From: Tetraselmis striata
Taxonomy: Eukaryota; Chlorophyta; Chlorodendrophyceae; Chlorodendrales; Chlorodendraceae
Direction of reading: 5' to 3'
DNA length: 64,000 bases
Assembly (NCBI GenBank): GCA_006384855.1
Contig: VCJN01001890.1
Location: 1 to 64,000, forward strand
The translations under genes and the position numbers were made by a program. Every line of letters starts with the position of its first letter. Position 1 is the first letter of the stretch. The notes under the pieces are model-generated. The model made no database searches. It was given only the letters and a program-made list of their open reading frames with translations, and was not told where the DNA came from. Positions 1,021 to 39,742 of the stretch are shown piece after piece.

Positions 1021-3445
1021 ATGAAATTTAAATTGAAATTGATTTCAACTGCTGGTCTGTTGCATCCACTGGCTCAGTCTGAGTTGTTCTTAGGACCTGC
1101 TATCTCTAACCACAATTGGGAACACGAAGTGTTATCACAGCTCGAGCTATCGGTCATCCTTCTATGCTTCGTAGCCCCTCCTCCGTCCAGCGGGCTATAG
1201 CTAAGAAAACAGCGCCCCCATGCGGTCCCTACCTAAGTCAGACCCATCCCATCCAGAGCTCAGCATGCACGCTAAGGCAGGCAGAGGCGTCCCCGCCCGC
1301 TGCTACTGAGGTTTGATGGGGGAGGGGAGCTATCCGGAATAGCTGCATGGTGCTCAATATGTATATACCGCTGAGCCGGCTAGCTTGGTGGGGCGAGGGC
1401 TACAATGCCCTCCATCTCTAATGGTGTTGGCATAGTATACTACGTTTAATGGCATGATAACTTTATTGTCTGGTGCTTGTACCAAGCCCGCGGATCGGGC
1501 GATACACTGTCTATAATACTTGCGGGGAAAAGGTGCCGGTAATTCGAAAACATGCAATTCCAGGCGTATCGGCTAAAAATGTCCGTAGTTCTTGGGTTGG
1601 GGCGGTGATAGTCGCGGGCGTGCGCCCGGCTTGGGTTTGGGCGCCTTGCCGGCGGAGAATATCAACAGACGGCCCATCTGCGGCTGCTGCAAGGGGATCA
1701 TCCGGCGCGGGGGGCGACGGAGGCGGTGGGCCTCGGCCGCGAGCCGGGCCAGCCGGGACGCATGGGTTGGTGTGTTGGTTGGAGAGATATGCTCGAGGGG
1801 GGCGGTGGCCTCCGAGACCTCTCCTATCGCGGTGGGGGTTTGGGCTGCGGCCGTTGGAGCCGGCTCGGGCCGCGGGGCTGGATCGACGCTTGTCGCCGAC
1901 TCATCGACTTACCGTGGCAGGTCGTCGTCGTCCATCTCCGTGTCCGGAGGGGCTGCCACGGCCGGGGGGTGGGCCGCTTCTAGCTGGCTAGTTGGTGGTG
2001 GCGGGAGGTCCCGGGGGAGCTGGCCGTGGTGCATCGTCGACTAGTCGGCTATAGTCGGCGCCGGTTGGTGAATAGTCGCCATCCTCTTCCGCCCATGTTG
2101 GTGGAGGGTACTGGCTGCGACGAGTTTCGCGTCGGATAATGTGTTAATGGCGAGTCCAGCTCAGCCCACACCTGCCGGAGCGGCGGCAGCCGGCATAGGG
2201 GCGCGTCGGGTCACCGCCCGGACGTCGTGAGTTGATGTGTGTACTCCGAGCTTGCTTGGGTCCGAGGGTACGGATCGGGTCCAGAAACATACAGCTGCGG
2301 CGAAGGTCGACCCCCGTCACACGGTTGCGGGTCACCATCTCGTTGAATAGCATGGCGACTTGTGTGGCACCGCCGTCAGCACCATGTGGGAGATCGATTG
2401 GGGGCTGGCGGGATTGGCGGATCACAATCCGGAAGGGACGACGGGAAACATGTGGGAGTCGGGTGCCTGCGATTTTTTTTGCAGCGATGGTTGTTCGGAT
2501 CTTAGGGGGTTGGGTCATGCAGCCGCACGGCGCATCGAGAGTGGCGCCGACCGATCACATTGCTCCTCGGGTCTGTTGATGTCCATGGTGGTTGTAGTGA
2601 TGGTCTCCTATGGAGCCGGCTCTTCACGCCTCTGTGGGCGTTGGCCGGCAGTTGGTATGGTGGTGGGTCGTCCGGTCGTCGGTATGTCCACCGTTTCACA
2701 AGAGTATACTATCATCACCAGTAGAGCCGCGCCGGCTCGCCCGGATTTAGAACATACGCAGTACTTCGCCCGGTGTTAAGGGCCGGCTGGAAAGTGAGGA
2801 ACGGGTAGTGTCCTCATTCTCCACCGGGACTGCGAAATCCAGACCCCGTCCTCACGGCCTTCCTGGCAATCGGCTTCGTCCGCGTGCTTTAACGGTGTTG
2901 TTGCCGCTTGCGCCCCCCGTCGGCGCTTCCGGCGTTGAGTGGAGGTGTTGATGGTGATGGGGTTGTACGTCAAGAGCCGAAGCTCCTCCTGAAGGTAGGC
3001 GTACCTGCGCGCCATGCCTTGGCATGTCTGGTCCAACCTAGGCAGGGAACGCATACGTAGTGCCAACGTGGGACCATATCGGCGTCAAGACATCCGCAAG
3101 TATCAAGGCGGCTAGCCAAATGTCACGCTCCATGGTAGACTCAGGCCAAAACGCCGGGAAGGGAGAGCGATCCCTCGTCCTTCTCATCCGGGGAGAAGTG
3201 CCACCTGTCTGCAGCCTTCCAAATCGCTTTCTCCATCTAAACAAAAGCCTTGCCCGAGTCAGCCTTGAAGTGGGAGAGGGGGCGAGAAGCAAGCTACGCC
3301 GGGGTGCCGTCGGGGACGCCGCGACGGATGAACTCGGGCCATGCTCCGCGGTATCAGACCAACGACTAAAAAACAATGCGTTGCGTACACCTCCGACCAC
3401 TACATCCGGCTGCATGATGACGAACTGGGTAGAAGTCACCGTGTT
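1021..3445 (-). mobile_element. Repeat unit D with GAAATT-type tail
   Basis: On the minus strand this unit ends at 1021-1060 in short AATTTC-type repeats preceded by a conserved block of about 150 bases. That block recurs at 3448-3640 and, less closely, at 43158 and 45233. Minus-strand open frames at 3496-3038 and 3066-2776 may be remnants of its protein. The second shares its C-terminus with the frame at 861-457. The stretch 1470-2050 is GC-rich with overlapping frames on both strands and no recognisable domain. Coding capacity is unknown; membership of the family rests on the tail and on the repeat shared with unit E. Confidence 0.5.
1024..1200 (-). repeat. Shared tail repeat, copy 1
   Basis: On the plus strand it starts with imperfect GAAATT repeats, followed by GATTTCAACTGCTGGTCTG and a GGACCTGCTATCTCTAACC block, then a CCCCTCCTCC stretch. 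The same order occurs at 3448. Read on the minus strand the element ends in a microsatellite, as many LINEs and SINEs do. Confidence 0.7.
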
Positions 3446-4844: not shown

Positions 4845-5405
4845 TAGCATGGAAAATGGCATTGCGCTTGGACAGCAACGGCGTACACATCAGTGCCCGC
4901 TACATTCGGTCCGCCGCGAACGCCTGGGCGGATCGATTGAGCCGACACATCGAGAGCGACGACTGGCAACTCGACCTCTGTCCTATTCGTAGAGCTGGAG
5001 GCCATGTGGGGTGCGCACTCCGTCGATCGGTTCGCGTCGGCCCTGAAGGCGATGCTACCACGCTACAACGCTGCGTGGTTGGACCCCGGCTGCGAGGCGG
5101 TGGATTCCCTGCACCTGTCCGATGCGGATTGGTGTCGCGAGAACAACTACTGCAATCCCCCCCCCCCCCCCCCCCCCCAGCCGCTTCTGCCGGACATGGT
5201 GCAGAAAGCTGCGCCAGAGCGGCGCGGCCGCTACCGGGCACTTAGCGACGAGATGGCGGTGGCGGAGCGCGTGGTACTGCCTCGCCGCGATCTTTTCCGG
5301 CCGGGGTGTAGGGCAGGGCGCGATATGTCCGGAGCGCCTCGCTGGGCAGTGAGTATCTTCCCTGTGCCATTCCGCCGTGGCTGCACCTGCGCCGCGGATC
5401 GATGA
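4845..5405 (+). pseudogene. RNase H C-terminus plus methyltransferase-like domain (DIRS copy 1)
   Basis: One frame (about 4860-4970) reads YIRSAANAWADRLSR, the end of a retroelement RNase H and nearly identical to the intact copy at about 12920-12970. A shift to another frame at 5004 continues with WGAHSVDRFASALKAMLPRYN and YCNPP, the DIRS-type N6-adenine-methyltransferase-like domain. The NPPW motif of the intact copy has been destroyed by expansion of its six C bases to about 22 C (5157-5178). The frame shift and the tract make translation impossible. In intact elements this domain lies C-terminal to RNase H in the same polyprotein. Confidence 0.75.
5157..5178. repeat. Poly-C tract inside a coding motif
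   Basis: About 22 consecutive C bases stand where the intact element has the Pro-Pro codons CCCCCC of its NPPW motif (13179-13184). Confidence 0.9.
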
Positions 5406-5539
5406 ATGCAACCTTAGCGCTGTTCCCCGTACGAGGTGCTACGCATGTCGTCAGGCCCGCGCGCGCGCCACGCATGCCATAGGCAAAATATTCGTTGAAC
5501 ATTCCGACGAGCGGCACGAACCCGTGGGCAGCTACTATG

Positions 5540-6630
5540 CGTCCGTACATGCGTTCATTACTAGGCAACGACCAACTCAGCGAAACGGCGCTGCATTTGT
5601 ACGCGTCGGCGTGGGCAGAGACTGCCGCTAGTGCGTACGGCAGTGCCATCCACCCGTTCCTACAGTTCTGCGCTGAGCATACCATGGTGTGCCGGCCATG
5701 GGTGCCACGGCGGCAACTGTCGCGCGCTACATCGCGTGGCAGGGTTTGCGGGGGACTGTCAAGGCAGCCAGTCTGCAGCCTTACCTTTCCGCGATCAACG
5801 GTTTATACCGCGACCACGGCGCGGAGCCGGTGGCGCAGGGCGACCTCATCGGCAAGGTGAGAAAGGGCCTCGCGGCATCGCATGTTGAGCCAGACCCGCC
5901 TGGGGTCCGCACCGACGTGCCCGCCCGGTTGATCACACGGACATTGCGGCTGGCGGAGACCCTGCGTGAGGAGTTGGGACCCGCATGGACCCGCGACCAA
6001 CCTCCTCGCATCCTCTTGCTCCTCGCTGCGAGGGCACTCGTTGCCATGTATGTGTTCTACGCGCATGGTGAGGCCGGCGTAGTTTGCCAAACGGACGATT
6101 TGGCGGTTGCTGCAGATGGTGCAATCCTACTGTACCATCGGGGCCGAGAAGACGAACGAGGGCAACATCGTGACCGCAAGGTACAGTGCCGGATTCCGGC
6201 GCGAGCGCATCCCTGGATTGCGGCCATGCTGCTCTATTTTGATGCCGCACGCGCAGTTTACTGCGGTCAACGCGGACTGCCAACAACCCGTTGGGCAATG
6301 ACCCACGACGAGCCGGCGGCATCGTCGTGGACATCGGCCACCGTTACATACTGGTTGCACCTAGTGGCACATATGTTGGAGGAGCACCCGCCTCCCGGGT
6401 TTTTGTGGACATCACACTCTCTCCGCAAAGGCGCGGCCACTGCGGCGTACGCCATCGGCGTGGTGCTCCAGAAGATCAAGCACTTTGGCGGTTGGGCGCA
6501 ATTGTCCACCGTCGTGCTCGACAACATCAATCCCACGGCGCTACCGTGTGCGGCATCGTGGCAGCTCTTTGGCTGGCTTACCCCTTGGGGTGGGCCGCCA
6601 GCGACATGCTGCCGCCCATGGGCGGCATGA
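5540..6630 (+). pseudogene. Tyrosine recombinase (YR) of DIRS copy 1, inactivated
   Basis: The N-terminal core-binding part (SLLGNDQLSETALHLYAS, from about 5552) is in one frame. Near 5690 it shifts to a second frame that stays open to 6630 and contains the catalytic part, including HSLRKGAATAAYA (H-x-x-R, about 6414) and IKHFGGWA. The residue aligned with the catalytic Tyr (NYI at about 14533 in copy 2) is Asn here (LDNIN, about 6508-6525), and the first catalytic Arg region reads AHGEAG instead of SPRGYQ. The enzyme would normally integrate the circular cDNA by site-specific recombination; this copy cannot. Confidence 0.75.
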
Positions 6631-7006: not shown

Positions 7007-8370
7007 TTAACTCATCATATATACGCGTTTCCAGTACATTGTGATGTACACCGGCGGCAGCGGCGGCTGCGCCGCCGCCATTTGGACCCAGACTGTTGAC
7101 CGAGGGTTGTTGACACGCTGCTGACGAGAGCGGGGGACTCTAGTCGGGCTTGTCCTTGGGGCTTATCGGCAGGCCTTGTTATCGAACGCCTAATCCGAAC
7201 GGCCTATCCATATAAGCCGTATGGATAAGCGCTTATAAATAAGACTTACATGTGGCTTATGTCTGTAAAGCCGACACCGCCAGCGGCCTCATGTGTGCAA
7301 GTAGACACTCAACATGGGTGTCTACTATCTTGCAATGAAGAGCCACCCATGAATACATGTGTAACAATTTGTCACCAAAATTTGGTTTCGGAGCATCTGC
7401 ATATCACTCACGTCTTCACTTCATGTTTTGGGCTGCATGACAAACAGTATGGCTTCGGAGCTTGTCTAGGAGACTTACTCAATATTCTCCTTACTACATC
7501 GCTTTTATTATCATGATCCATGTTTTGTCGCATGGAATCATTTCAAAGCTAGAACAATTCAATTACATAGCCATAAACCATAGCGCCTACTACTTCAGTA
7601 CCAAGAAATATTCAAGTATCCCTAGAGCACACAAGGTCATAAGAATTCCATTTGGTTTTAAATCAACCTTGAAGGTTAATGACTTATTCACACTCGGCAA
7701 GAAGGCCACAATTATCAAAGTGCCCACGTCTTGCCCCTGGAAACAAGGTTCCTGAGGCCCATATATATCGCTTAACACACCGCAACCGTGCATCTGGTGA
7801 CCAGCTACCATCTGTTTTGAACTTATATTTTCGTAGTGATGTTCGTAAGACGCGCGGCGGCGCTCTGAGACAAGGCTGCACGTGCAGCCTCGCTCCCCAC
7901 AATCGCCCTTCCGTGCATCTTGCTTGGCCGGCCTCCCAAGCCAACTTCACCACCAGACTGATGCTCGCCCGGTCGTGTGTTTCGAGGCAAGATTATTCCC
8001 TATCCGTCGTGATGTGCCCCCGCTTGCCCTTTCATACGCCGGATGTGATGCGGCGCGGGCGTTCCCTATTCGTACGTACGAGTCCCGGTGTTCCGCCGCG
8101 CCGCGTTGCTGCAATGCACGCCACACCGCCGTGCATATTTGCTGGCACCATTATCCGTTCAACCTCAACAGCATCAATACAATACAAGACCTGCGGAGGC
8201 CCTCGCCCCTTGTGACTGCGCTTTGCGTGCCTTCCGCGACCTCGCTCGGCCGGCACTCCGACACGCCTGCTGGCCTATACTTACATCACCCCCCCTGCCG
8301 CTCCGCGGTCCGCGTGTGCCTGCCAAAACCATACGCTTTACCGTTTGAAGTGATCTAATAAACTCGTAAA
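7007..8370. other. No recognised gene
   Basis: About 1.4 kb of mixed composition. It holds a palindromic patch around 7205-7240 (repeats of CCATA/TATGG and GCTTAT). Open frames at 7590-7811 (minus) and 7679-8215 (plus) resemble no family I know. Probably old intergenic or transposon debris. Confidence 0.4.
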
Positions 8371-8372
8371 TA

Positions 8373-9855
8373 CACTCCTCCACATAAGTCCGGGTTTTGA
8401 ATTTTCGATCGCATCAAAGCGCATGCATGGGCGAGGATAACGCCGGCTGCATGTGCATACATGCTAACTACAATGGGAATAGTTCGGGCAAACGCCTATT
8501 GTGCGCTTTATACCCACATCACGACCATTTGTGGGCGCCCCTTTAAAAACGCGAAATCAGTGCATGATGCGTTGGCGCTAGAAAATTGTTGGTTGCGCCA
8601 ACCGTCCAAACCTATGGAAATAACGGCACTCGTCGCACCAAACTCGGTGAATACGGCCCTTGGCATAAGTTGCACACACCGTGCGTGTAGGCCACTGAAA
8701 GATGTCGCTATAGGCACGACGTGACACCCCAACGATAAGTTGGCCACTGTGGCGAGCAGTTTTGGGGTGAAAATGCTGATGTTTCTGTGGCGAACGCACG
8801 TAGGAGAGGCGCTCGATGGCCCCCTTGGCGTAGGGCAATGCTCTACTATGGGGGCGCGTGGTGGGATGCCAGCTGCACCGTTTCGTGGGCGGGGTGGCGC
8901 GGTGGGCAGGGGCGTGGATTTTAATTAATATGAAATTCCTTGAAAAATGCTGTGGAAAATGGCATGTTGCCTGGTAGATGTGTGTATCGCTAGCTAGGAG
9001 GCGGCACATGCCAAGTGTTGATGGTCCGTGGTCATCCACACACATAACGCTCTGGAGCAACTGAGTATGGGGCTCCGACACGCACTTGGCGCAAAGCCAC
9101 GCGCCCGACATGCATGGGTGGGCACATGAGGCAGTGAGGGGCAACTTGAATGATCATCTTTGGGGATTTTTCCCGGGCCCCCGAAAATTGATTTTTTGAT
9201 TTTGAAAGATTGGGTTCAACGCAAATTTGAACGAGGAACTGCGTGGTATTTTTAAAAAGTTTTTCTGAGCAAACCCTGAGAAGTTAGAGCGTTTTAAAGC
9301 CAAGGGGGTGTTGCTGAGCGTGGCCAACATTGATGCCATGTCAGTATCGCAACGCGACATGTACTAGCCGCCGCCCCCACGGCTGCACCCCAACCAAATG
9401 CACCCGCCGAGCCCCTCGCCAATGTGTTTCCTCACGCGTTCATGGCCATCCCGTCATTTGGTTGTATATTTACGCGCGTCGGCGTGTGCGTGCTACCGAC
9501 CCTGATTTTGGTGCAGTTGCAGGCGACGCCCATCCTCGCACTAGCCAAGTGCAACGTGACACCCTAGTCAAAGGTCTTTAAGCTTCGGTTTGAGCCACTC
9601 GTCATGCAGGTCTTATAAACCCTCTGAGATTCCAGGGTTTCATCTCATATACCCTACGTTCAGGTACCCTAGACTTCTGAAGCCTTGAGACCGCCGAAAA
9701 GGGACCCCAAACTTATGTGGAGGTTTAGCCCCGCGGCCCGGCGCTAAGAGGGTTCTGCTTAAATGTAGGCTTTTTCCTTCCCCAGTACTTTCCGTGCATT
9801 CTCTTGACGCTCTCCCTGTAACCAAAAAGATATTACAAACTTATGTGGAGAGGTG
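8373..9855. mobile_element. TA-flanked non-autonomous DNA transposon, copy 1
   Basis: Terminal inverted repeats CACTCCTCCACATAAGT (8373-8389) and its near-perfect complement ACTTATGTGGAGAGGTG (9839-9855) are flanked by TA on both sides (8371-8372, 9856-9857). The interior is highly similar along its whole length to 35332-36674. There is no long coding frame shared by the two copies, so it is probably mobilised by a transposase encoded elsewhere. TA duplication suggests a Tc1/mariner-like enzyme, but the ends match no family I can name. This copy is about 140 bp longer because of an insertion near its right end. Confidence 0.8.
9723..9835. repeat. 113-bp insertion flanked by 15-bp direct repeats
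   Basis: The 15-mer CAAACTTATGTGGAG occurs at 9708-9722 and again at 9836-9850. The sequence between is absent from the sister copy at 36655-36670, where the 15-mer occurs once. That is the footprint of an insertion with a 15-bp target-site duplication, or of a local duplication. Confidence 0.6.
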
Positions 9856-10118
9856 TAGGATTACCTCTTCCCAACGTGCTATAATATAACTGCCCTCTAG
9901 CGCTTCCGTACGGTTTCGCGGTCCCATCATATTCTTGCCGGTACAGGTACCGCTAGGTCGCTGTACAAGTTGCCCCACCGCCCGTGACGCTTCGCTTCTT
10001 GCCGGGAAGCTACTTAAGGCAGCCACCACCACTTTCCTGACCATCCCCCAGCTCGCTGCCTCCGGGAGCGCTCTCCCGTCTCCGTTTCCGTGTTCCAACA
10101 CTCCCGCCTCCGATTTTC

Positions 10119-10369
10119 TCGTTGTTAAGTACTTAACTGAGTTTAGTCAGACGACGGACCGAGTTGTGCGGTCGAACGACTACCACCTGGAAAATATAGC
10201 ACAGTAGCCAGTCATCGGCTCTGTCTAGAATCTTCCAGGATGGGACAGTGAGCAGCGGACTCGCGACCGCACCAGCTCCCGACCTGTTTCCCTGCCTGCC
10301 TGCAGCTACTACTTAGCCAACTGTCTAGACCATAGCGCTCATCCCTTTTGCTGTTGCGCTTCACGCACC
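10119..10369 (+). repeat. Split direct repeat A1
   Basis: Begins TCGTTGTTAAGTACTTAACT, which contains the palindrome AGTACTTAAC/GTTAAGTACT. It matches 14690-14940 almost perfectly and lies upstream of the gag ORF, so it probably holds the promoter and leader. Confidence 0.9.
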
Positions 10370-10456
10370 AGCAATCGCGCGGCACCTGTGCCGCGAGGGG
10401 AAGCGATCCTTGTCGATATTATCCGCCTGCGCTAGCACGACGCCCTGCGCACGGCA

Positions 10457-11425
10457 TTGTCAGGGCTCAGTATGCCTGACAACTCCGGTGACGCCCCTAG
10501 TGGCCTAGCCGAAGACCGCATCGCCGCGCTGGAGGCCGGTTTCGCGGGGCTTACGGAGTTTCTGGAAGCCCTACGAAGTGACCTTCAGCGGCCTAGTGGT
10601 TCTACTCCTACCGAGCCCCGCGCGCCCGCTAGTAGCGCTGCCGCGGCGAGCTCCCAGCACGACGCACCGGCTCGCGCAGAGCAGGTTTCCGTGCCCCAGC
10701 CCCAACGCGGTGGCCCTAGTGCCGCTGCCCCTTCCTTAGTCTGGGAGGAGTGGGCTCATTTAATTGGCCCCGGCTTTTCCGTCCAGCCCAGTCCCGGCCT
10801 CTCTCCGATTCCCCAACTGTACGACATCTCATCTGACGAGACGCACCGCCAGCTCATCGCGCGTCGGCACTGGGCCACTTTGGATCAGTACCGCTCTCTG
10901 TACTGCTTTGGCTTCTACGATGCGGTGGCCCACGCGGCTCTCTGCGAGGCGCTCGCGTCGATTAAGAGAGCGGCAAGCGCGGCGCAGCCCCCTGGTGAGG
11001 AGGACCTTCGCCTCCTTGAAGCGGGCGTGGCGGCCTACGACGCCTCAAATAAACACCGGCGCGACTTCCTGGCGTTTATCCGCCTCAACGCGTCGAACGA
11101 TGCGGATGCGCGGACCAAGACAGTCGCACAGGTGGTTCGCCGCAACCTCCTCAAGCCCGGTTTCGCGGACTATGGTTCGGAAGCAGTGGCGCAGCTCAGC
11201 GACGAGCTTTTGCGCCGCGAGGCCGAGTACAGCGTCACGGCGGCGGCAAAGGCAGCCGTACAACAGCGCTTCGGCGTGGGACCAGACCCCAACGAGGAGG
11301 AGGACAACGACGACGAGCCACCATCCAGAGCGCGACGGCGCCGGCCCTCCGGACGCCGCCCACGCCCAGACTTCCGCCCCACAGCCGACGACGCCGACAA
11401 GGGCAAGGGCAAGGGCAAGGCCTGA
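10457..11425 (+). CDS. Gag-like protein of DIRS copy 2
   Basis: The 322-residue open frame starts with ATG 88 bases after repeat A1. It is rich in Ala, Pro, Ser and Arg. A predicted helical stretch (residues 20-45) comes first, then a low-complexity Pro/Ala linker (45-95), an ordered alpha-helical middle (about 100-275) and a basic tail (RARRRRPSGRRPRP, then KGKGKGKA). No CCHC zinc knuckle is visible, which is usual for DIRS gag. I infer a nucleic-acid-binding capsid-like role. It ends at a TGA followed by C. The RT frame is open in +1 across its last 660 bases, so RT is likely expressed by +1 frameshifting or reinitiation. Confidence 0.75.
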   Translation: MSGLSMPDNSGDAPSGLAEDRIAALEAGFAGLTEFLEALRSDLQRPSGSTPTEPRAPASSAAAASSQHDAPARAEQVSVPQPQRGGPSAAAPSLVWEEWAHLIGPGFSVQPSPGLSPIPQLYDISSDETHRQLIARRHWATLDQYRSLYCFGFYDAVAHAALCEALASIKRAASAAQPPGEEDLRLLEAGVAAYDASNKHRRDFLAFIRLNASNDADARTKTVAQVVRRNLLKPGFADYGSEAVAQLSDELLRREAEYSVTAAAKAAVQQRFGVGPDPNEEEDNDDEPPSRARRRRPSGRRPRPDFRPTADDADKGKGKGKA

Positions 11426-13457
11426 CGGTGCGGCCCGCCGTTCCGCTTCGTTACCACGCCCCTCCACGTTTCTGCGCCATCGCGTGCGGCAGAACTGGCG
11501 GGAGTGGCGGCGAATCGGGGCGAGCGGGCGCGTGCTCCGGTGGGTTCGCGAGGGAGTGCCGCTACCTTTCTCTGGCGCGGCGCCCACGCCTTTCCACCGG
11601 GGCGTCTCTCTACAGGACGCTACGCCTCAGCAGTTCGAGTGGTGGGAGCGGGAGAGCCAGCGACTAGTAACAGTCGGCGCGCTAGAACGTGGCGTGCGCG
11701 AGCACTACGTGTCGCGAGTCTTCCTAGTACCAAAGCCGGGCTGCAACCAGTGGCGCCTTGTAATAGACCTGCGCCATCTAAACTCTTACTGCGCGGTCTA
11801 TTCCATGCGATTCGAAACACTGCGTCGCCTGCGGTACCTGGCGAAACGCGGCGACTGGGCGTTTTCCTTCGACCTGCAGGACGGCTACTACGCCCTGGGC
11901 TTGCGGGAGGACGTCCGCGACTTCTTTACAATCAACGTACGTGGCACCCTGTGGCGCTTCGCGGCCCTCCCCATGGGTTGGTCGCTAAGCCCTTACTACT
12001 TCTGCACTCTGATGGCGGTCATGGTGCGCTACCTGCGTCAACCAGACTTCGCGACCTACACCAGCTACGGCCGGCCCTTCCGTCGACGCTTGCGTCGCCG
12101 CAAGGCGCGCGGCGTTTGCCTCCTACCGTTCATCGACGACTTCCTGTTTCTGGCACCGTCGCGCCAGCTGGCTCTACGCCTACGGGCCGAGGTCGAGCGA
12201 CTCTGGGGGCGCCTGGGCCTGGCCAAGCACCCCACCAAGGCGCACCCCGAGCCCACCCAGCAGCTGCAGCACTTAGGCATGGACTTGGACCTGGTCACTA
12301 TGCAGTTCCGCGCCCCAGCGGCGAAACTGCGTCGGCTCTCCAACCTGGCCCGCGACCTCCTGTGCATCGCTGCGCGCCGCCGCCGCCACGCGCCGGCCAA
12401 ACTCCTTGCGTCTCTCGCCGGGCAGGGCCAGTTCCTCTACCTCGCGATGCCTCCGGCACGTTTCTACCTCCGCGAGGCGCACACCGTCCTGGGCCGATGC
12501 TCCTCTCCGAGCGGCAAGGTCGTTCTGACGCGTCAGCTCATTCGCGATTTGGAGTGGTGGCGCGATGTTCCCACGCGCCACAACGGCGCACCGATTCTGC
12601 GCCCGGTGGAGACAGCCTATCTGCACACGGACTCTAGCCAGTACGGCTGGGGTGCGGTACTGTGCGAAACTACGGAGGCACGCGGATATTGGTACGAGGA
12701 GGATCGTCGACGTCATATAACGTACAAGGAGCTCAAAGCGGTACGTCTCGCCATACAGTCATTTTTGCCACGGCTGATGGGGCGCCGCGTACTTTTGTAC
12801 GAGGACAATCAGGCGGTGGTGCATATCCTGTCCAATTTGACTACTCGGTCACCGGTGCTTATGGCGGAACTTCGCAAGCTATGGTATTTGCTGGATGTAC
12901 ACGATATTCGTTTACGAGTACGGTACATTCGGTCTGCGGCGAACGCATGGGCGGACAAGCTTTCGCGAGAGAAGGACTTTTCCGATTGGATGATCAATCC
13001 TCGTATATTCCGGTACGTCGATCGCATCTGGGGACCTCATACGGTCGACCGATTCGCAACTATGGAGAACGCCTTGTTACCTCGGTACAACTCCCGGTGG
13101 ACGGTCCCAGGTACCGAGGCGGTGGACTCCTTGGCCCAGTCGGACGCCACGTGGCGCGCCGAAGTGAACTGGTGCAATCCCCCCTGGCAGCTGCTGGACG
13201 ATCTGGTGCTAAAGCTGCAGCAATCGGGGGCCGCGGCGACCGTGGTCGCCCCGGCCTGGCACGGCCGCCCTTGGCTCCAGCAGCTACACGAGATGGCTAC
13301 AGAGGTACTGCACTACCCTCCTTCCCGCGATCTGTTCTTTCCCGGGCTGCTCGGGCGCCGCGCGGGCGTCGGGCCGCCGCCCTGGAGCGTGATGCTCTTC
13401 CGCCTTCCCTTCCGTCCTTCTTCTACCGGTCGCGACGCGCCGGTTACGGGGCGTTAA
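10764..13457 (+). CDS. Reverse transcriptase - RNase H - methyltransferase-like polyprotein (DIRS copy 2)
   Basis: The frame is open from 10764, but the first 220 codons overlap gag in a shadow frame; protein similarity starts near 11455. RT motifs: LVIDLRHLNSYC (about 11757), FDLQDGYYALGL (about 11869), ALPMGWSLSPYYF (about 11964) and the catalytic FIDDF (12129-12143, a variant of YxDD). RNase H: LHTDSS, KELKAV, LYEDNQAVV and AWADKLS carry the acidic residues (about 12620-12965). A DIRS-type N6-adenine-methyltransferase-like domain follows, starting near WGPHTVDRFA and including NPPW (13176-13187) and VAPAW. RT and RNase H make cDNA; the role of the methyltransferase-like domain in this class is unknown. 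No in-frame ATG sits at the domain start, which supports frameshift expression from gag. Confidence 0.85.
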   Translation: MAPAFPSSPVPASLRFPNCTTSHLTRRTASSSRVGTGPLWISTALCTALASTMRWPTRLSARRSRRLRERQARRSPLVRRTFASLKRAWRPTTPQINTGATSWRLSASTRRTMRMRGPRQSHRWFAATSSSPVSRTMVRKQWRSSATSFCAARPSTASRRRQRQPYNSASAWDQTPTRRRTTTTSHHPERDGAGPPDAAHAQTSAPQPTTPTRARARARPDGAARRSASLPRPSTFLRHRVRQNWREWRRIGASGRVLRWVREGVPLPFSGAAPTPFHRGVSLQDATPQQFEWWERESQRLVTVGALERGVREHYVSRVFLVPKPGCNQWRLVIDLRHLNSYCAVYSMRFETLRRLRYLAKRGDWAFSFDLQDGYYALGLREDVRDFFTINVRGTLWRFAALPMGWSLSPYYFCTLMAVMVRYLRQPDFATYTSYGRPFRRRLRRRKARGVCLLPFIDDFLFLAPSRQLALRLRAEVERLWGRLGLAKHPTKAHPEPTQQLQHLGMDLDLVTMQFRAPAAKLRRLSNLARDLLCIAARRRRHAPAKLLASLAGQGQFLYLAMPPARFYLREAHTVLGRCSSPSGKVVLTRQLIRDLEWWRDVPTRHNGAPILRPVETAYLHTDSSQYGWGAVLCETTEARGYWYEEDRRRHITYKELKAVRLAIQSFLPRLMGRRVLLYEDNQAVVHILSNLTTRSPVLMAELRKLWYLLDVHDIRLRVRYIRSAANAWADKLSREKDFSDWMINPRIFRYVDRIWGPHTVDRFATMENALLPRYNSRWTVPGTEAVDSLAQSDATWRAEVNWCNPPWQLLDDLVLKLQQSGAAATVVAPAWHGRPWLQQLHEMATEVLHYPPSRDLFFPGLLGRRAGVGPPPWSVMLFRLPFRPSSTGRDAPVTGR

Positions 13458-13591
13458 GTGCTGCGGCTGCTACCTTGGACGTTTCCGCGGACGCTTTTCA
13501 GATCTCCCGTACAGATGCTCACAGCAGACAACACCCGGCTGTGCGGTACGGGTTGAAATCGAACGTACCGTCTGCACCATGGGCAGCGATT

Positions 13592-14624
13592 ATGCGACCT
13601 GGGCTACTGCGGCTACTCGGCGACGACGAGGTTGGGCGCCGTGCCGCGGATTTCTTGATGTCTTCGCGCGCGGAACGTACCGTGCAGTCTTACGGATCTG
13701 AATTCAACCTATTCTGCGAGTTCTGCGCGCAAAATGGGAGACTGCCGGACACGGCGGATCCGCCGCTCATCGTTCGGTACATCTCTTGGGTTGCGGCACG
13801 TGGCCGCAACAAGGCTGGTGCCTTTGGACCCTACCTTTCAGCGATCAACGCCTTTTTCACCGATAATTTCAAGGAGCCGCCGGCGCTTGGGCCTTTCGTC
13901 AACCAGGCGATGCGCGGTTGGGAGCTGGCTCAGCAGGTGCTGGACGCCCCGGACTACCGGGTGCCTCTGCCTGCGGACGTCGCCCTCGCCTGTGTTCGGC
14001 GTGCGCTGCGGCTGGTTTCTCACAGGTCCATCGCGTGCGACCTGCCCACATTCCGTGCCCTTCTCGTTACCGCGGTCAATTTCCTTTTTTTGTCACCGCG
14101 CGGGTACCAGTACGGGGTGCGGCGTGCGCGATTTGGCGGTTGATTCCCGCAGCATTACGCTGTACCGTCGAGTACTTAAGGGCAAGCCTTCCGGGGCGCC
14201 TCGTCCGGTGCTGCAAATTTCCCGCGAGGCGCACCCCGAAATCGCGGAGCTTTTGGAGTTCTTCGTCAGCTGCCGCGATCACGTGCTGCCCGGTGCTACT
14301 CGGTTTTGGCAGCTCCCTGATGATGATCCCGGCACGTGGACCGCTGCTACTGTCTCCGAATGGGTAACTGCCGCTGCCTTGGCAGTTGACGCTACCCCGC
14401 CTGCTGGTTTCTGCTGGTCGTCGCACAGCCTTCGCAGTGGCGGGGCGTCCGCGGCCTCGGCCACGGGCGTCCCTATGCCTACGATTCGCTGGCTTGGCGG
14501 CTGGAAAGTGGGCAGCGGCGTGGTCCTCAATTACATCGTGCCAGGCATCCTGGACTCCGCTGGGGCCCGCTACTTCTTCGGCTCCCTGGCACCGCAGCGT
14601 TCCGCTGCTAATCTTTCACAGTGA
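13592..14624 (+). CDS. Tyrosine recombinase of DIRS copy 2 (one frame change)
   Basis: The most plausible ATG is 13592, 135 bases after the RT stop. The core-binding half (LLRLLGDDEVGRRAADFLMS, YGSEFNLFCEFCA) stays in one frame to about 14115, with the first catalytic Arg in SPRGYQ. The catalytic half is in the +1 frame (RDLAVDSRSITLYRR, then H-x-x-R in SSHSLRSGG at about 14423, GGWKVG, and the likely nucleophile Tyr in NYIVPG at about 14533). The net shift equals one extra or two missing bases near 14110-14130. All catalytic residues are present, so the element may have been active until very recently, or the shift is an assembly error or is programmed. Confidence 0.75.
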
Positions 14625-14661
14625 CTGGTTTTCACCGGTAACTGTGGCCTTCCGGTTTTGC

Positions 14662-14689
14662 CTGGCAACGTGACTCGCACTCTGTCTAA
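14662..14689 (+). repeat. Split direct repeat B1
   Basis: The 28 bases starting CTGGCAACGTGACTCGCACT are identical to 15001-15028. They lie directly after the recombinase ORF and abut A2. Confidence 0.9.
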
Positions 14690-14940
14690 TCGTTGTTAAG
14701 TACTTAACTGAGTTTAGTCAGACGACGGACCGAGTTGTGCGGTCGAACGACTACCACCTGGAAAATATAGCACAGTAGCCAGTCAACGGCTCTGTCTAGA
14801 ATCTTCCAGGATGGGACAGTGAGCAGCGGACTCGCGACCGCACCAGCTCCCGACCTGTTTCCCTGCCTGCCTGCAGCTACTACTTAGCCAACTGTCTAGA
14901 CCATAGCGCTCATCCCTTTTGCTGTTGCGCTTCACGCACC
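14690..14940 (+). repeat. Split direct repeat A2
   Basis: The second copy of the 251-bp A repeat, abutting B1 without spacing. In a circular cDNA the outer A1 and B2 ends would join to recreate the B-A junction present here. Confidence 0.9.
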
Positions 14941-15000
14941 CACCCGTCCCACCCATCTTGTTTGGTGTGGCGAGGGGCTTGTAAGACAAGACACTCGCTT

Positions 15001-15028
15001 CTGGCAACGTGACTCGCACTCTGTCTAA
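15001..15028 (+). repeat. Split direct repeat B2 (element end)
   Basis: Exact copy of B1, 60 bp after A2. I take it as the right end of the element because no further sequence is shared. An AATAAA at 15053 lies just outside. Confidence 0.85.
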
Positions 15029-35145: not shown

Positions 35146-35331
35146 CCGCGCGGGTCCAGCGTATAGTACAGCTACATAGTAGTCGCCACATGCAGGCAGT
35201 CCGAGAACGATAATGTTTATAGCGACTATATGTTACCTGAGCTACAGGTAGCTGCCGATATATTTTAAAATATAATTGGCAGTCGCTACTGGTGTGAATT
35301 ACAAAAAGGGCAGTAACAAATCCACCTACTA

Positions 35332-36674
35332 CACCCCTCCACATAAGTCCGGGTTTCACATTTTCGATCGCAAAGCGCATGCATGGGCGAGGATAACGCC
35401 GGCTGCATGTGCATACATGCTAACTACAGTGGGAATAGTTCGGGCAAACGCCTATTGTGCGCTTTATACCCACCCGCGCGACAACACGACCATTTGTGGG
35501 CGCCCTTTAAAAACGCGAAATCAGTGCATGATGCATTGGCGCTAGAAAATTGTGGGTTGCGCCAACCGTCCAAACCTATGGAAATAGCGGCACTCGTCGC
35601 ACCAAACTCGGTGAATACGGCCCTTGGCATAAGTTGCACACACCGTGCGTGTAGGCCACTGAAAGCATGTCGCTATAGGCACGACGTGACACCCCAACGA
35701 CAAGTTGGCCACTGTGGCGAGCAGTTTTGGGGTGAAAATGCTGCTGTTTCTGTGGCGAACGCACGTAGGAGAGGCGCTCGATGGCCCCCTTGGCGTAGGG
35801 CAATGCTCTACTATGGGGGCGCGTGGTGGAATGCCAGTTGCACCGTTTCGTGGGCGGGGTGGCGCGGTAGGGGCGTGGACTTTAATTAATATGAAATTCC
35901 TTGAAAAATGCTGTGGAAAATGGCATTTTGGCTGGTAGGTGTGTGTATCGCTAGGAGGCGGCACATGCCAAGTGTTGGTGGTCCGTGGTCATTCACACAC
36001 ATAACGCTCTCGCGCAACCGAGTATGGGGCTTAGACACGCACTTGGCGCAAAGCCACGCGCCCGACATGGGTGGGCACATGAGGCAGTGAGGGGCCACTT
36101 GGATGATCATCTTTGGGGATTTTTTCCGGGGCCCCAAAAATCATTTTTTTGATATTGGAAGATTGATTTTGACGCAGATTTGAACGAGCAACTGCGTGGT
36201 ATTTTTAAAACAATTTTCTGAGCAAACCCTGAGAAGTTATAGCGTTTTAAAGCGAAGGGGGTGTTGCTGAGCGTGGCCGACACTGATGCCATGCCAATAT
36301 CGCAACGCGACATGTACTAGCCGCCGCCCACACGGCTGCACCCCAACCAAATGCACCCGAGCCCCCCACCAATGTGTTTCCTCACGCGTTCATGGCCATC
36401 CCGCCGTGTGGTTGTCTATTCACGCGCGTCGGCGTGTGCGCGATACCGACCCTGGTTTTGGTGCAGTTGCAGGCGACGCCCATCCACGCACCAAGTGCAG
36501 CGTGACACCCTAGTCAAAGGTCTTTAAGCTTCGGTTTGAGCCACTCGTTATGCAGGTCTTATAAAACCCTCTGAAATTCCAGGGTTTCATCGCATATACC
36601 CTACGTTTAGGTACCCTAGACTTCCGAAGTCTTGAGACTGCCGAAAAGGGACCCCAAACTTATGTGGAGGGGTG
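35332..36674. mobile_element. TA-flanked non-autonomous DNA transposon, copy 2
   Basis: Inverted ends CACCCCTCCACATAAGT (35332-35348) and ACTTATGTGGAGGGGTG (36658-36674) are perfect complements, flanked by TA at 35330-35331 and 36675-36676. The interior of 1343 bp matches copy 1 (8373-9855) nearly base for base, with small indels. Reading frames are not conserved between the copies. It sits between the MULE and the piggyBac element. Confidence 0.85.
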
Positions 36675-36676
36675 TA

Positions 36677-36990: not shown

Positions 36991-39431
36991 ATGAGGACCT
37001 CCGTCACCAAAGGCGCTCGTGTATCAGCCCGCCGAGGGCCCATGCTACCCCTGAGTGGCGACCAACGTCGGTGCCAGCGTGCTCGGCTGTTCGGCAACGT
37101 TACCGAGTCCGTCGGCGAGGGCAAATGGATGGTCCGCTGGGACGACGCCCCGGCCGACGTCCAAGAGACCAAGAGTCCACCAGGCACTCCGCTGCGAGCG
37201 AGCTACTGATGGTCGCACCCCTCCCTCGGCATCCTCTACGCCACGAGGTCAAGGGACTGCCGTCGGCCCTTTCGTGCCGCCCCGCCCTGCAGCTGCTGCT
37301 GATGCGAGTGCGAAGGCGCTGGGTGGCAGTCGTGGAACGATCGTTACATGCAGTGTCGTTTCCGACACCGGCACCCCCACCGAGATCCGATCCATCCCTG
37401 CGACCTCTTCCCCAGCCTCTATCCTAGCGACCGAGCCCCTGCCTGCCGACAACCTTGACATGTCTGCCGAGTCGCAAGACAGCCACTCAGGCGTCGAGCT
37501 CGCCGAGGAGCTGGGCGATAGCTCCGGGGACGAGGAGGCGCCAGAGCAAGATGTCGGCGGCGCCTCACCCGACGACGGCCACAAGGATGCCGCCTGGATC
37601 TCCCCCGCTCCTGGCACCACCGTCGTCCTGAAGCAAGGCAGCAAGATTGCAACTTGGTCAGTCTTTAACTTAGATAGCGCTGAGGAGATGGCCAAGATGC
37701 GAGACACTACTGCCCAGCGAGAGGCGGCTCGTACCTTGCCAGTTGGGTTGCGAGATGGGCTGCCCATTGGCGTTGGCAGCGTCGACTTGGTCCAGCTCTG
37801 GGTTATGATGTACCCAGGCGACCTGTCTGCCGACATGGAGAAAGTCAATGCTGCTGGCATGCGCCGTTCATCAACACACAAGCTGATCAGCATGCGTGAG
37901 TATGTGAGGTTCTGGGGGCTGGTCATCGCCGGCGCGCTGTACTCTCAGCAAGGCAGAGATCTGTGGGCTACCAACATCACGTTTGATGACCTTCGTGACC
38001 AGCCTAACTTCCATCGCTACATGCCCCTTTACCGTTTCAAGTATATCCGGTCGCTGATCAAGTACGCTAAGGCTGACCTCGACTCTACTGTGAGGGATCC
38101 TTGGGCGTGGTTCCGCCGTGCTGCAACCGAGTTCAACGCCAACCGCGCGACTATCCTGAACACCGGGATCTTTGCTACTATGGATGAGAGCATGTCCGCC
38201 TACCAGCCCAGGGCAACCAAGCTGGGCGGCCTCCCCAACCTGAGCTTCATCTACCGGAAGCCCAAGCCGCTGGGCACTGAGATGAAGACGGTATGTGACT
38301 GCGACACCGGTGTGATGACCTACATCGAGATCCAGGAGGGGAGGGACTCTATGCATGTGAAGCCGCATGCTGTTGAGCACGGTGTGACTACCGCTTGTGT
38401 GATGCGCATGGCTGAGACCTGCACCAGCACCGACTCTACCCTGCTGGGCGATGCGTGGTTCGGGTCTGTGAAGGTATGACCCTCGTCCTTCTGCCCCGTG
38501 TGTTTATCATGCTGTGATGGGCAAATGCAATTACTAATAATGATTCTTACCTGCTATGCCGTCCCCCAGGCCGCTGTCCAGGTGGGCAAGATGGGCCGCC
38601 ACTTCATCGGCGTCGTCAAGACTGGCCATGGTCTGTTCCCAAAGGCCTTCCTGAAGAGCCACCTGACATCAGCACCGGCAGGCAGCAGGGTTGCTCTCTC
38701 AGCGATAGTGGATGGTGTGGATCTCATGGCAGTGGGCTACAAGTGCAACATGAGGAAGGTGTTGTTCTTTGTGGCCACAGCTGGTGCCGGCGCCCTGGAG
38801 GATCGCAACCCCTACATACAGCGTTGGGCGGACGACTTCGGCAACACCGTCACTCGGAGCATCCCCCGCCCATCTGTGCTGTCCAACTACTTTGAGCGCA
38901 GCCCCCGCGTCGACAACCACAACCAGTCGCGCCAGCATGATCTCGCGCTGGAGGAGGCCTGGAATACCCAGGACTGCTGGTTCCGACTCGCGACTACCCT
39001 CTGTGGCATCGCCACCACCGATTGCTGGAAGATCACCAAGTTCCACGTCCCGTGTGCCCACCCCTACGCCAGCGTGACTATCAAGGACTTCTCAGAGCTG
39101 ATGGCGAAGGCCCTCATTTACAACGGGCTGGAGGGCGCCATCCCGTCCCCCCGGCCACCGCCTCGCCATCGCGCCCAAGCGCTACTTGGACACCACCGAC
39201 CAGCACACCCATGTCAACCACGGGCGATACGCGAACGGCCGCAGCAAGCAGTCGAGGTGCTGCCGTTGCTACCGTGACGAGGGCGAGGAGCACTGGAGCT
39301 CGTTCTACTGCGTGCAGTGCGGCATCACCTTGTGCATGCCCAGCTCGGTGCACAGCCGGGACTGCTGGGAGCACCACCTCCACTGCGACGAGACCGCCAT
39401 CCGCCGCATGAAGCACGCCCGCGCCGGCTAG
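36991..39431 (+). pseudogene. piggyBac-type transposase (one intron, two frame changes)
   Basis: The ATG at 36991 starts an N-terminal part with RLFGNVTESVGEGKWMVRWD, which resembles an agenet/Tudor-like entry domain. A +1 frame change near 37195 (indel or unrecognised short intron) leads to an acidic linker and the DDE core: FATMDESMSAYQPRATKLGG (about 38170), LGTEMKTVCD, IEIQEGRDSM and LLGDAWFGSV (about 38445). The intron 38474-38569 has donor GTATGA, branch-like TTACTAATAA and acceptor CCCCAG. The rest of the core follows (MGRHFIGVVKTGHGLFPKAF, WFRLATTLCGIATTDCWK). A +1 change at the C tract 39145-39150 is needed to reach the C-terminal Cys-rich finger (CCRCYRDEG, FYCVQCGITLC, to 39431). 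Domain content is complete, so it is only lightly damaged. Confidence 0.8.
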
Positions 39432-39742
39432 GGCGGCACACCCCAAGTCCGCCGCCCCGGCTACCGCATGTAGACTCCCATCCCCGTAGTTGACCCGGGC
39501 CACTGGCCGCGGGATGGTGTATGAACCTATATCATGCCAGTTGAGCTGGCTCATGTGGTGGGCGGGTGTGCTCTGTAGGTCCCGCCCGCAGCGCCCTCTT
39601 AGCGGTACCGGTACAGTCGCGTACCTACCTTTAACAGAAAATCCCCTATTTACCGTACCGGCCCCGGAATGACGATACAACAAAACCATGTTGGATTTAT
39701 CCTCACATACAAAAGTCCCCGAGGCACTAGAAAATCAACACA
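39432..39742. other. No recognised gene
   Basis: About 310 bp after the piggyBac stop. It contains AGCGGTACCGGTACAG (39601-39615) and a palindromic GCCGCCTTAAAGCGGC at 39748-39763. Confidence 0.4.

Follow-up and report, generated by a model that had tools for sequence, protein, structure and literature searches.

A PAT retrotransposon with a putative readthrough signal linking gag to a recombinase frame that overlaps reverse transcriptase

PAT elements of the DIRS order are defined by a layout with split direct repeats together with a methyltransferase (MT) (PMC4157794). The 4910-bp element described here occupies positions 10119-15028 of a 64-kb window, the whole stretch of DNA analyzed (contig VCJN01001890.1, positions 1 to 64,000), and is arranged in the order A1, overlapping long frames, B1, A2, spacer, B2; all positions are window coordinates unless called element positions (element 1305-1310 correspond to window 11423-11428). 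Its split-repeat layout and methyltransferase match place it almost certainly in PAT, as the earlier note on this DNA had proposed. Its predicted proteins make it TOC3-like in form, with no zinc finger in Gag and a tyrosine recombinase (YR) in forward orientation. The TOC3/PAT elements of green algae have the same split direct repeats, MT, forward YR and zinc-finger-free Gag (PMC4157794, PMC3266345, PMC8226300), although no readthrough cassette is mentioned in the available sections of those papers, and the likeness is one of layout and domains, not of a reverse transcriptase (RT) tree. Kangaroo of Volvox also has the PAT layout in a green alga (PMC4157794), but its YR is inverted. Ngaro elements share the A1-ORFs-B1-A2-B2 arrangement of repeats and open reading frames (ORFs), as well as isolated AB repeats (PMC8547959, PMC3266345), but are without an MT, whereas the window element has a Dam-type match. 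DIRS1-like elements share the RT-RNase H (RH)-MT and YR genes and a model with circular complementary DNA (cDNA) (PMC3266345, PMC5633606). DIRS1 itself has inverted repeats, whereas the terminal repeats here are direct. The DIRS1 model requires a 3-bp target that is identical, but the final three bases of the target differ among insertions of the present element.

A long overlap between ORFs is present in half of 28 annotated DIRS1-like elements (PMC3266345), and in the available parts of the literature consulted no account was found of how DIRS or PAT elements make a recombinase whose ORF overlaps that of RT. The word 'readthrough' is absent from PMC3266345 and PMC4157794 (the check covered the unhyphenated form), 'read-through' in PMC12440569 refers to transcripts, and a literature search joining DIRS and tyrosine recombinase with either spelling, mostly among papers free of subscription, found no such recoding in the sections available. 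Type II readthrough signals consist of UGA followed by CGG or CUA, many with a stem-loop ~6-12 nucleotides (nt) downstream (PMC11166343). The gag stop of the window element is UGA CGG, with a stem-loop predicted after a spacer of 7 nt. In viruses such readthrough extends a viral protein; in the present element the protein joined to Gag would be a DNA recombinase, reached by crossing an RT gene that is read in a different frame. We propose that the YR of this element is probably a Gag readthrough product made at UGA CGG, and the recoding signal looks new.

All of the genes are on the forward strand. The gag-like ORF1 (10472-11425) has 317 codons from its ATG and is called gag by position only, having no Pfam match; no zinc knuckle is present, a search for a CCHC zinc finger giving no match, and there are 2 Cys in its 317 residues. 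Its UGA stop and the following CGG lie at 11423-11428. The RT / RNase H / Dam-type methyltransferase ORF (11427-13457) is +1 relative to gag, in a frame open from 10764, and has Pfam matches to RVT_1 (3.1e-13), RT_RNaseH (8e-06) and Dam (2.3e-04, below the Pfam cut-off); its PDB matches are reverse transcriptase. The gag-phase frame continues past the stop (11426-14624) and leads into the YR domain (13460-14624), where Pfam finds a weak phage-integrase N-terminal domain in another frame than RT. In a copy whose YR frame is open (L054), Phage_int_SAM_1 is matched at 1.7e-04, 0.1 bit under the cut-off, and the C-terminal part matches Cre recombinase (E 9.7e-04) across the catalytic HxxR...Y region.

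The YR frame of the window copy is split (ORFs 12638-14143 and 13659-14624): it contains a TGA at 12635 and, ahead of 14143, differs in length by one base (4910 versus 4909 bp), and the claim of the earlier note that all replication modules are present fails on this point. Assembly errors in a complete copy are a possible if doubtful explanation of these lesions: the length difference is just one base, but the copy carries 7 private substitutions, so that private mutations are to be expected in it. The same substitutions and broken frame speak against the suggestion that this copy could be a founder.

Among 17 copies with both ends, the gag-phase frame past UGA CGG is open to element 4502, a distance of 1065 codons, in 11, and for 1067 codons in one more; it overlaps RT, read in +1, from element 1309 to 3336. 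Stop codons were tested on a single copy, L054, used as coordinate frame. Synonymous permutation of RT that keeps its amino acids and codon counts predicts 13.3 stops in the overlapping frame where none is observed, and none of 20000 permutations is stop-free; under a stricter null, in which the following base is preserved too, 7.4 are predicted, again with 0/20000. Codon choice reflects this, with RT codons ending in T absent ahead of codons starting with AA, AG or GA (0/94, versus 98/581 elsewhere; p 1.5e-7). By type the counts are 0/28, 0/7 and 0/59, and the avoidance of UGA taken alone (0/59, p 7e-5) rules out its reassignment as a sense codon. The third frame over the whole of RT contains 18 stops with 21.5 expected. 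Both alternative frames are normal in the control stretches, namely the RT and YR of locus L065, window 5677-6627, a piggyBac and a copia sequence, and also in the element's own gag, and there is no T avoidance in L065 RT (38/151 versus 126/544). Locus L065 (C2875) represents another DIRS-like family, with a 696-residue RT-RH-MT ORF and 71-bp direct repeats; the histidine of HxxR in its YR appears, by eye, as glutamine.

The ratio of nonsynonymous to synonymous polymorphism (pN/pS) is 1.7-2.4 for the gag-phase frame over RT, compared with 0.43-0.50 for RT, 0.50-0.66 for YR and 0.61-0.85 for gag (the first figures omit copy L052 and the second include it). The frame is thus kept open yet its amino acids are free to change, and ribosomes seem to have to pass through it; on these counts the gag-phase frame seems to be maintained, but not for its protein sequence. 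Ribosomes would read through the gag UGA CGG with assistance from the stem-loop to make YR, and in the resulting Gag-spacer-YR protein the middle section would be without conserved sequence.

The predicted stem-loop (11433-11529, forward strand) starts 7 nt past the gag stop, and its basal 13-bp stem (11433-11445 with 11516-11529) is common to the element and a sister family, here called X. This family is abundant, with 4983 first-look candidates in the genome, the best 125 of which were scored. The copy of X at C1619 has an RT 45-49% identical to that of the window element; its gag-phase frame ends in GAC UGA CGG, beyond which it stays open across at least 94 codons, as far as a 500-base piece (L073) extends, while its RT is in +1, with similarity reaching the stop, where the query started. 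The YR frame of this copy has no stops over RNase H and MT where 5.5 are expected (P 0.001), the third frame having 6 versus 7.4, and there are none over the first 94 RT codons (1.9 expected, P 0.08). Starting at the stop, 126 nt of the element can be aligned to X with no gap. Across both families the 13 pairs of the shared stem are formed in 26/26 cells, with 10 pairs unchanged, 2 changed on both sides and 1 on one side, and versions of the stem that are slid along the sequence pair in 23-62% of cells. Under a null keeping the RT amino acids, folding is as stable in 19/1000 cases for the element, 1/1000 for X and 1/1000 jointly. Dinucleotide shuffles of X give z scores of -2.99 to -4.37, and neither of two control stretches of the window, one ahead of the stop and one deeper in RT, is outstanding (z -0.07 and -0.67). 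A decayed copy of X is present in the window at 4853-6630 (YR at 5677-6630), its RT 43-49% and its YR ~34% identical to those of the element. Two other loci were tried as tests of the cassette and set aside: L069 (C976), by eye a Ty3-like element whose pol ORF has a Dam-methyltransferase-like stretch, and L071, a YR remnant.

Several observations weigh against readthrough, some of them favoring other explanations of YR expression considered below. The window TGA at 12635 sits in the frame leading to YR, and copies L049 and L052 also carry a stop there. The X cassette is covered by one copy only, as two separate pieces (the start of RT, and RNase H/MT), and this copy is not intact, with stops and a shift in RT itself; the decayed X copy in the window shows no clear depletion (2 stops versus 4.1 expected, P 0.16). 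The family of L065 is without a long overlap. Covariation in the stem is weak, with 132/500 shuffles doing as well, a comparison that has little power with two sequences. Folding of the element is modest and depends on the stretch chosen, with dinucleotide-shuffle z scores of -1.33 (90 nt), -1.62 (135 nt) and -2.24 (120 nt), +0.98 for a 72-nt stretch in which the stem is cut, and -2.38 under the null keeping RT amino acids.

Among these other explanations, the one that survives best is that the gag stop is ordinary and that YR is translated from a short messenger RNA of its own, with an internal AUG at or beyond element 2379 as its start. In-frame AUGs are present inside RT at element 2379, 2763, 2829, 3474 and later, the strongest stop depletion is located after 2379 (0 versus 9.1 expected), and the stretch before 2379 is less extreme (17/20000 permutations are stop-free, or 367/20000 under the strict null). 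However, the region from the gag stop to 2379 is also stop-free (P 0.0045-0.009 with local codon use; p 0.013), and UGA CGG and the stem recur in family X, and we consider an internal start unlikely. Still less probable is that the open overlap and the stem have no role in translation and simply follow from common descent and a GC-rich codon usage. The window is ~57% GC, the two families share ancestry, and there is some depletion elsewhere: the third frame is slightly low at element 2380-3336 (8 versus 11.8, P 0.04-0.07), and stops are also scarce in the two other frames of the YR-only part (9 versus 15.6, P 0.02; 3 versus 8.1, P 0.008). This explanation is nonetheless at odds with the permutations holding amino acids and codon counts, with the normal third frame over all of RT, with the five control stretches outside the element, which are normal in both frames, and with the L065 RT and its lack of T avoidance. 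Splicing out of the RT region would likewise yield a Gag-YR protein but is very improbable, as an excised region need not stay stop-free, yet this one does.

Readthrough of the gag stop would couple recombinase and capsid in the manner of retroviral Gag-Pol, and a leaky stop common to two families is a concrete, testable answer to how a recombinase with an RT-overlapping ORF is made. Weak stops also allow +1 slippage (PMC9841425), a route by which RT may be reached. Relative to gag, RT is in the +1 frame in the element's family and in X alike, with RT-like sequence extending to the gag stop. More speculatively, and with considerable doubt, the stop may be a hub at which ribosomes terminate (Gag), read through (Gag-YR) or slip +1 (Gag-RT-RH-MT), in which case capsid, reverse transcriptase and recombinase would come from a single RNA in a set ratio, each of them tethered to Gag. 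The RT frame is also open upstream of the gag stop (element 648-1304, P 0.03-0.055; no power in X), which leaves a frameshift within gag, or an internal start, as further possibilities for RT.

The terminal repeats of the element are direct, and all of the following parts are on the forward strand. A1 (251 bp, 10119-10369) forms the 5' end and B2 (28 bp, 15001-15028) the 3' end, both outer ends being fixed by an empty site. Internally, B1 (28 bp, 14662-14689) directly adjoins A2 (251 bp, 14690-14940), together forming an internal copy of the circle junction, and a 60-bp spacer (14941-15000) separates A2 from B2. Alignment shows A1 and A2 to differ only at position 97 of the repeat (window 10215/14786) and B1 and B2 to be identical, which bears out both the repeat differences and the complete termini described in the earlier note. 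An imperfect palindrome with the center GTAC, 78% complementary, spans the B1-A2 junction (14681-14722), and the sole inverted pair near the ends is a 28-nt match of this palindrome in A. An attC-like single-strand hairpin at the circle junction was rejected, since five folds of the region are no better than shuffles (z 0.55 to -0.87), and the palindrome is retained only as a candidate YR binding site. The spacer between A2 and B2 contains TGTAA (14980-14984), a green-algal poly(A) signal that would place the RNA end close to where B2 begins. Searches of the window for tRNA and Rfam families gave no match.

Copies were sought in the genome (224 Mb in 2903 contigs) with three probes, yielding 240 first-look candidates for A, 107 for the 3' end and 117 for an internal 5' segment, the best 40 of each being scored. 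The 40 scored 3' end matches, of the 107, are all 100% identical, and the statement on fixed ends is based solely on 20 copies picked by the internal 5' probe, with ends recognized at up to 3 mismatches in 35. The left end is recognized in 19 of these (18 starting TCGTTG and one CCGTTG; L058 is not recognized) and the right end in 17, all finishing TCTAA (L042, L048 and L057 are not). With 17/17 and 18/19 of the recognized ends alike, the exchange point is fixed, and there is no sign of the mixture of ends to be expected from a free overlap of 6-8 bp. Two A copies exactly 4570 bases apart are present on 7 other contigs among the 40 scored A matches, which puts the split-repeat layout beyond chance; other copies share both the layout and the ends, and neither of the results named in the earlier note as refuting it was obtained.

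The 17 sequences with both ends are the window element and fetched copies, and 15 of them are near-full, L044 and L050 being much shorter and left out of pairwise divergence. Nine of the 17 are 4909 bp long, and all three long frames are open in 9, which contradicts the earlier view that such complete elements are rarely seen. The A repeats are identical in 10 of the 17, with 1 difference in the window copy and L052, 2 in L040 and L043 and 5 in L053; those of L051 and L055 are not comparable in register. L051 is without ~64 bp across the B1-A2 junction and L055 without ~60 bp within A2. The near-full copies diverge from each other by 0.06-1.16% (mean 0.49%), and the window copy from the 14 others by 0.18-0.96%. 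With this low divergence and 1/251 between its A repeats, the window copy is a recent insertion, as had been supposed. The element is not rare in the genome; it is active or recently active, belongs to a well-preserved family, and as to kind is an ordinary PAT element. Locus L031/L070 (C1254) resembles a diverged relative but is the same family carrying an insertion, and no relatives were found in viral contigs.

The further copies and empty sites for which the earlier note had recommended a search are both present. Joined flanks of 19 distinct sites were compared with all sequence available, and 8 matched across the junction. Integration without target-site duplication is stated for DIRS1-like elements (PMC3266345), and 6 of the 8 matched sites (window, L001, L039, L041, L045 and L047) are exact, without target duplication or loss, the other two being uninformative. 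At the window empty site (C1590) base 10118 is joined to 15029 with no base gained or lost. L039 is exact against an 88% match and L041 has its empty site present at 100% across 400 bp. The L045 site lies inside a T run and is exact against L014 except for one base past the junction, the length of the run differing in L027, and for L047 the matching sequence is a repeat at window 39541-39717, in which the lone gap is ~60 bp away from the junction. The repeats surrounding the L040 and L056 sites are too diverged to compare. A diverged repeat with two copies in the window (8224-9723 and 35330-36676) also occurs near the empty site at C1590 (L060, 92.7% and 93.6%).

Flanks were combined from the 3'-probe and 5'-probe sets, leaving 24 left and 38 right flanks after duplicate removal (26 and 53 before). 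On the left, positions -5 to -2 are T in 17, T in 17, T in 20 and A in 18 of the 24 distinct flanks, each above the 99.9% null maximum, and the target preference compiled from them is TTTAN. On the right, a mild enrichment in A/T covers +8 to +11, with one column above the 99.9% null and the other three above the 95% null. Identity of the target sequence as a rule of insertion was rejected, the preference being confined to the TTTA part; the last three target bases vary (TAA, TAT, TAC, TTC, CAA and others). The circle junction, TCTAA joined to TCGTTGTTAAG, holds a similar pair of A/T-rich half-sites, and we infer that such pairs fit a Cre-like enzyme with two half-sites flanking a spacer. Between them, the precise empty sites and the TTTAN preference describe the recombination closely enough that circle integration could be tested biochemically.

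Variants of A1 and A2 were compared in 15 copies, L051 and L055 being excluded since part of B1/A2 or of A2 is missing from them. In 4 of the 15, forming a sublineage, the variants at positions 24 and 67 of the repeat occur in A1 as well as in A2, and a variant at position 134 is in both A repeats of L039; the remaining ten variable positions are confined to one repeat of the copy bearing them. A1 and A2 thus change together between sublineages, as expected if the ends are copied off the internal B1-A2. The RNA would be without its extreme ends, the internal B1-A2 copy would restore these, the cDNA would circularize at the junction of B with A, and YR would recombine the circle into the target. 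A solo A-spacer-B unit of 339 bp, like a solo long terminal repeat, has identical flanks on two contigs (C1222 and C945; L032 and L038), and L001 is a form with a 961-bp internal deletion.

The host is phototrophic, its genome containing 63 matches to PF00504 (chlorophyll-binding), and is presumably an alga, in agreement with the algal setting assumed earlier. Several of these matches are equal-score pairs on two contigs, from which the genome is possibly assembled as two haplotypes. The pherophorin domain PF12499, looked for as a mark of volvocine hosts, gave no match, nor did any control. The window also encodes a piggyBac-type transposase at 37055-38476 (DDE_Tnp_1_7, E 2e-15), followed by an ORF in the same frame at 38480-39277.

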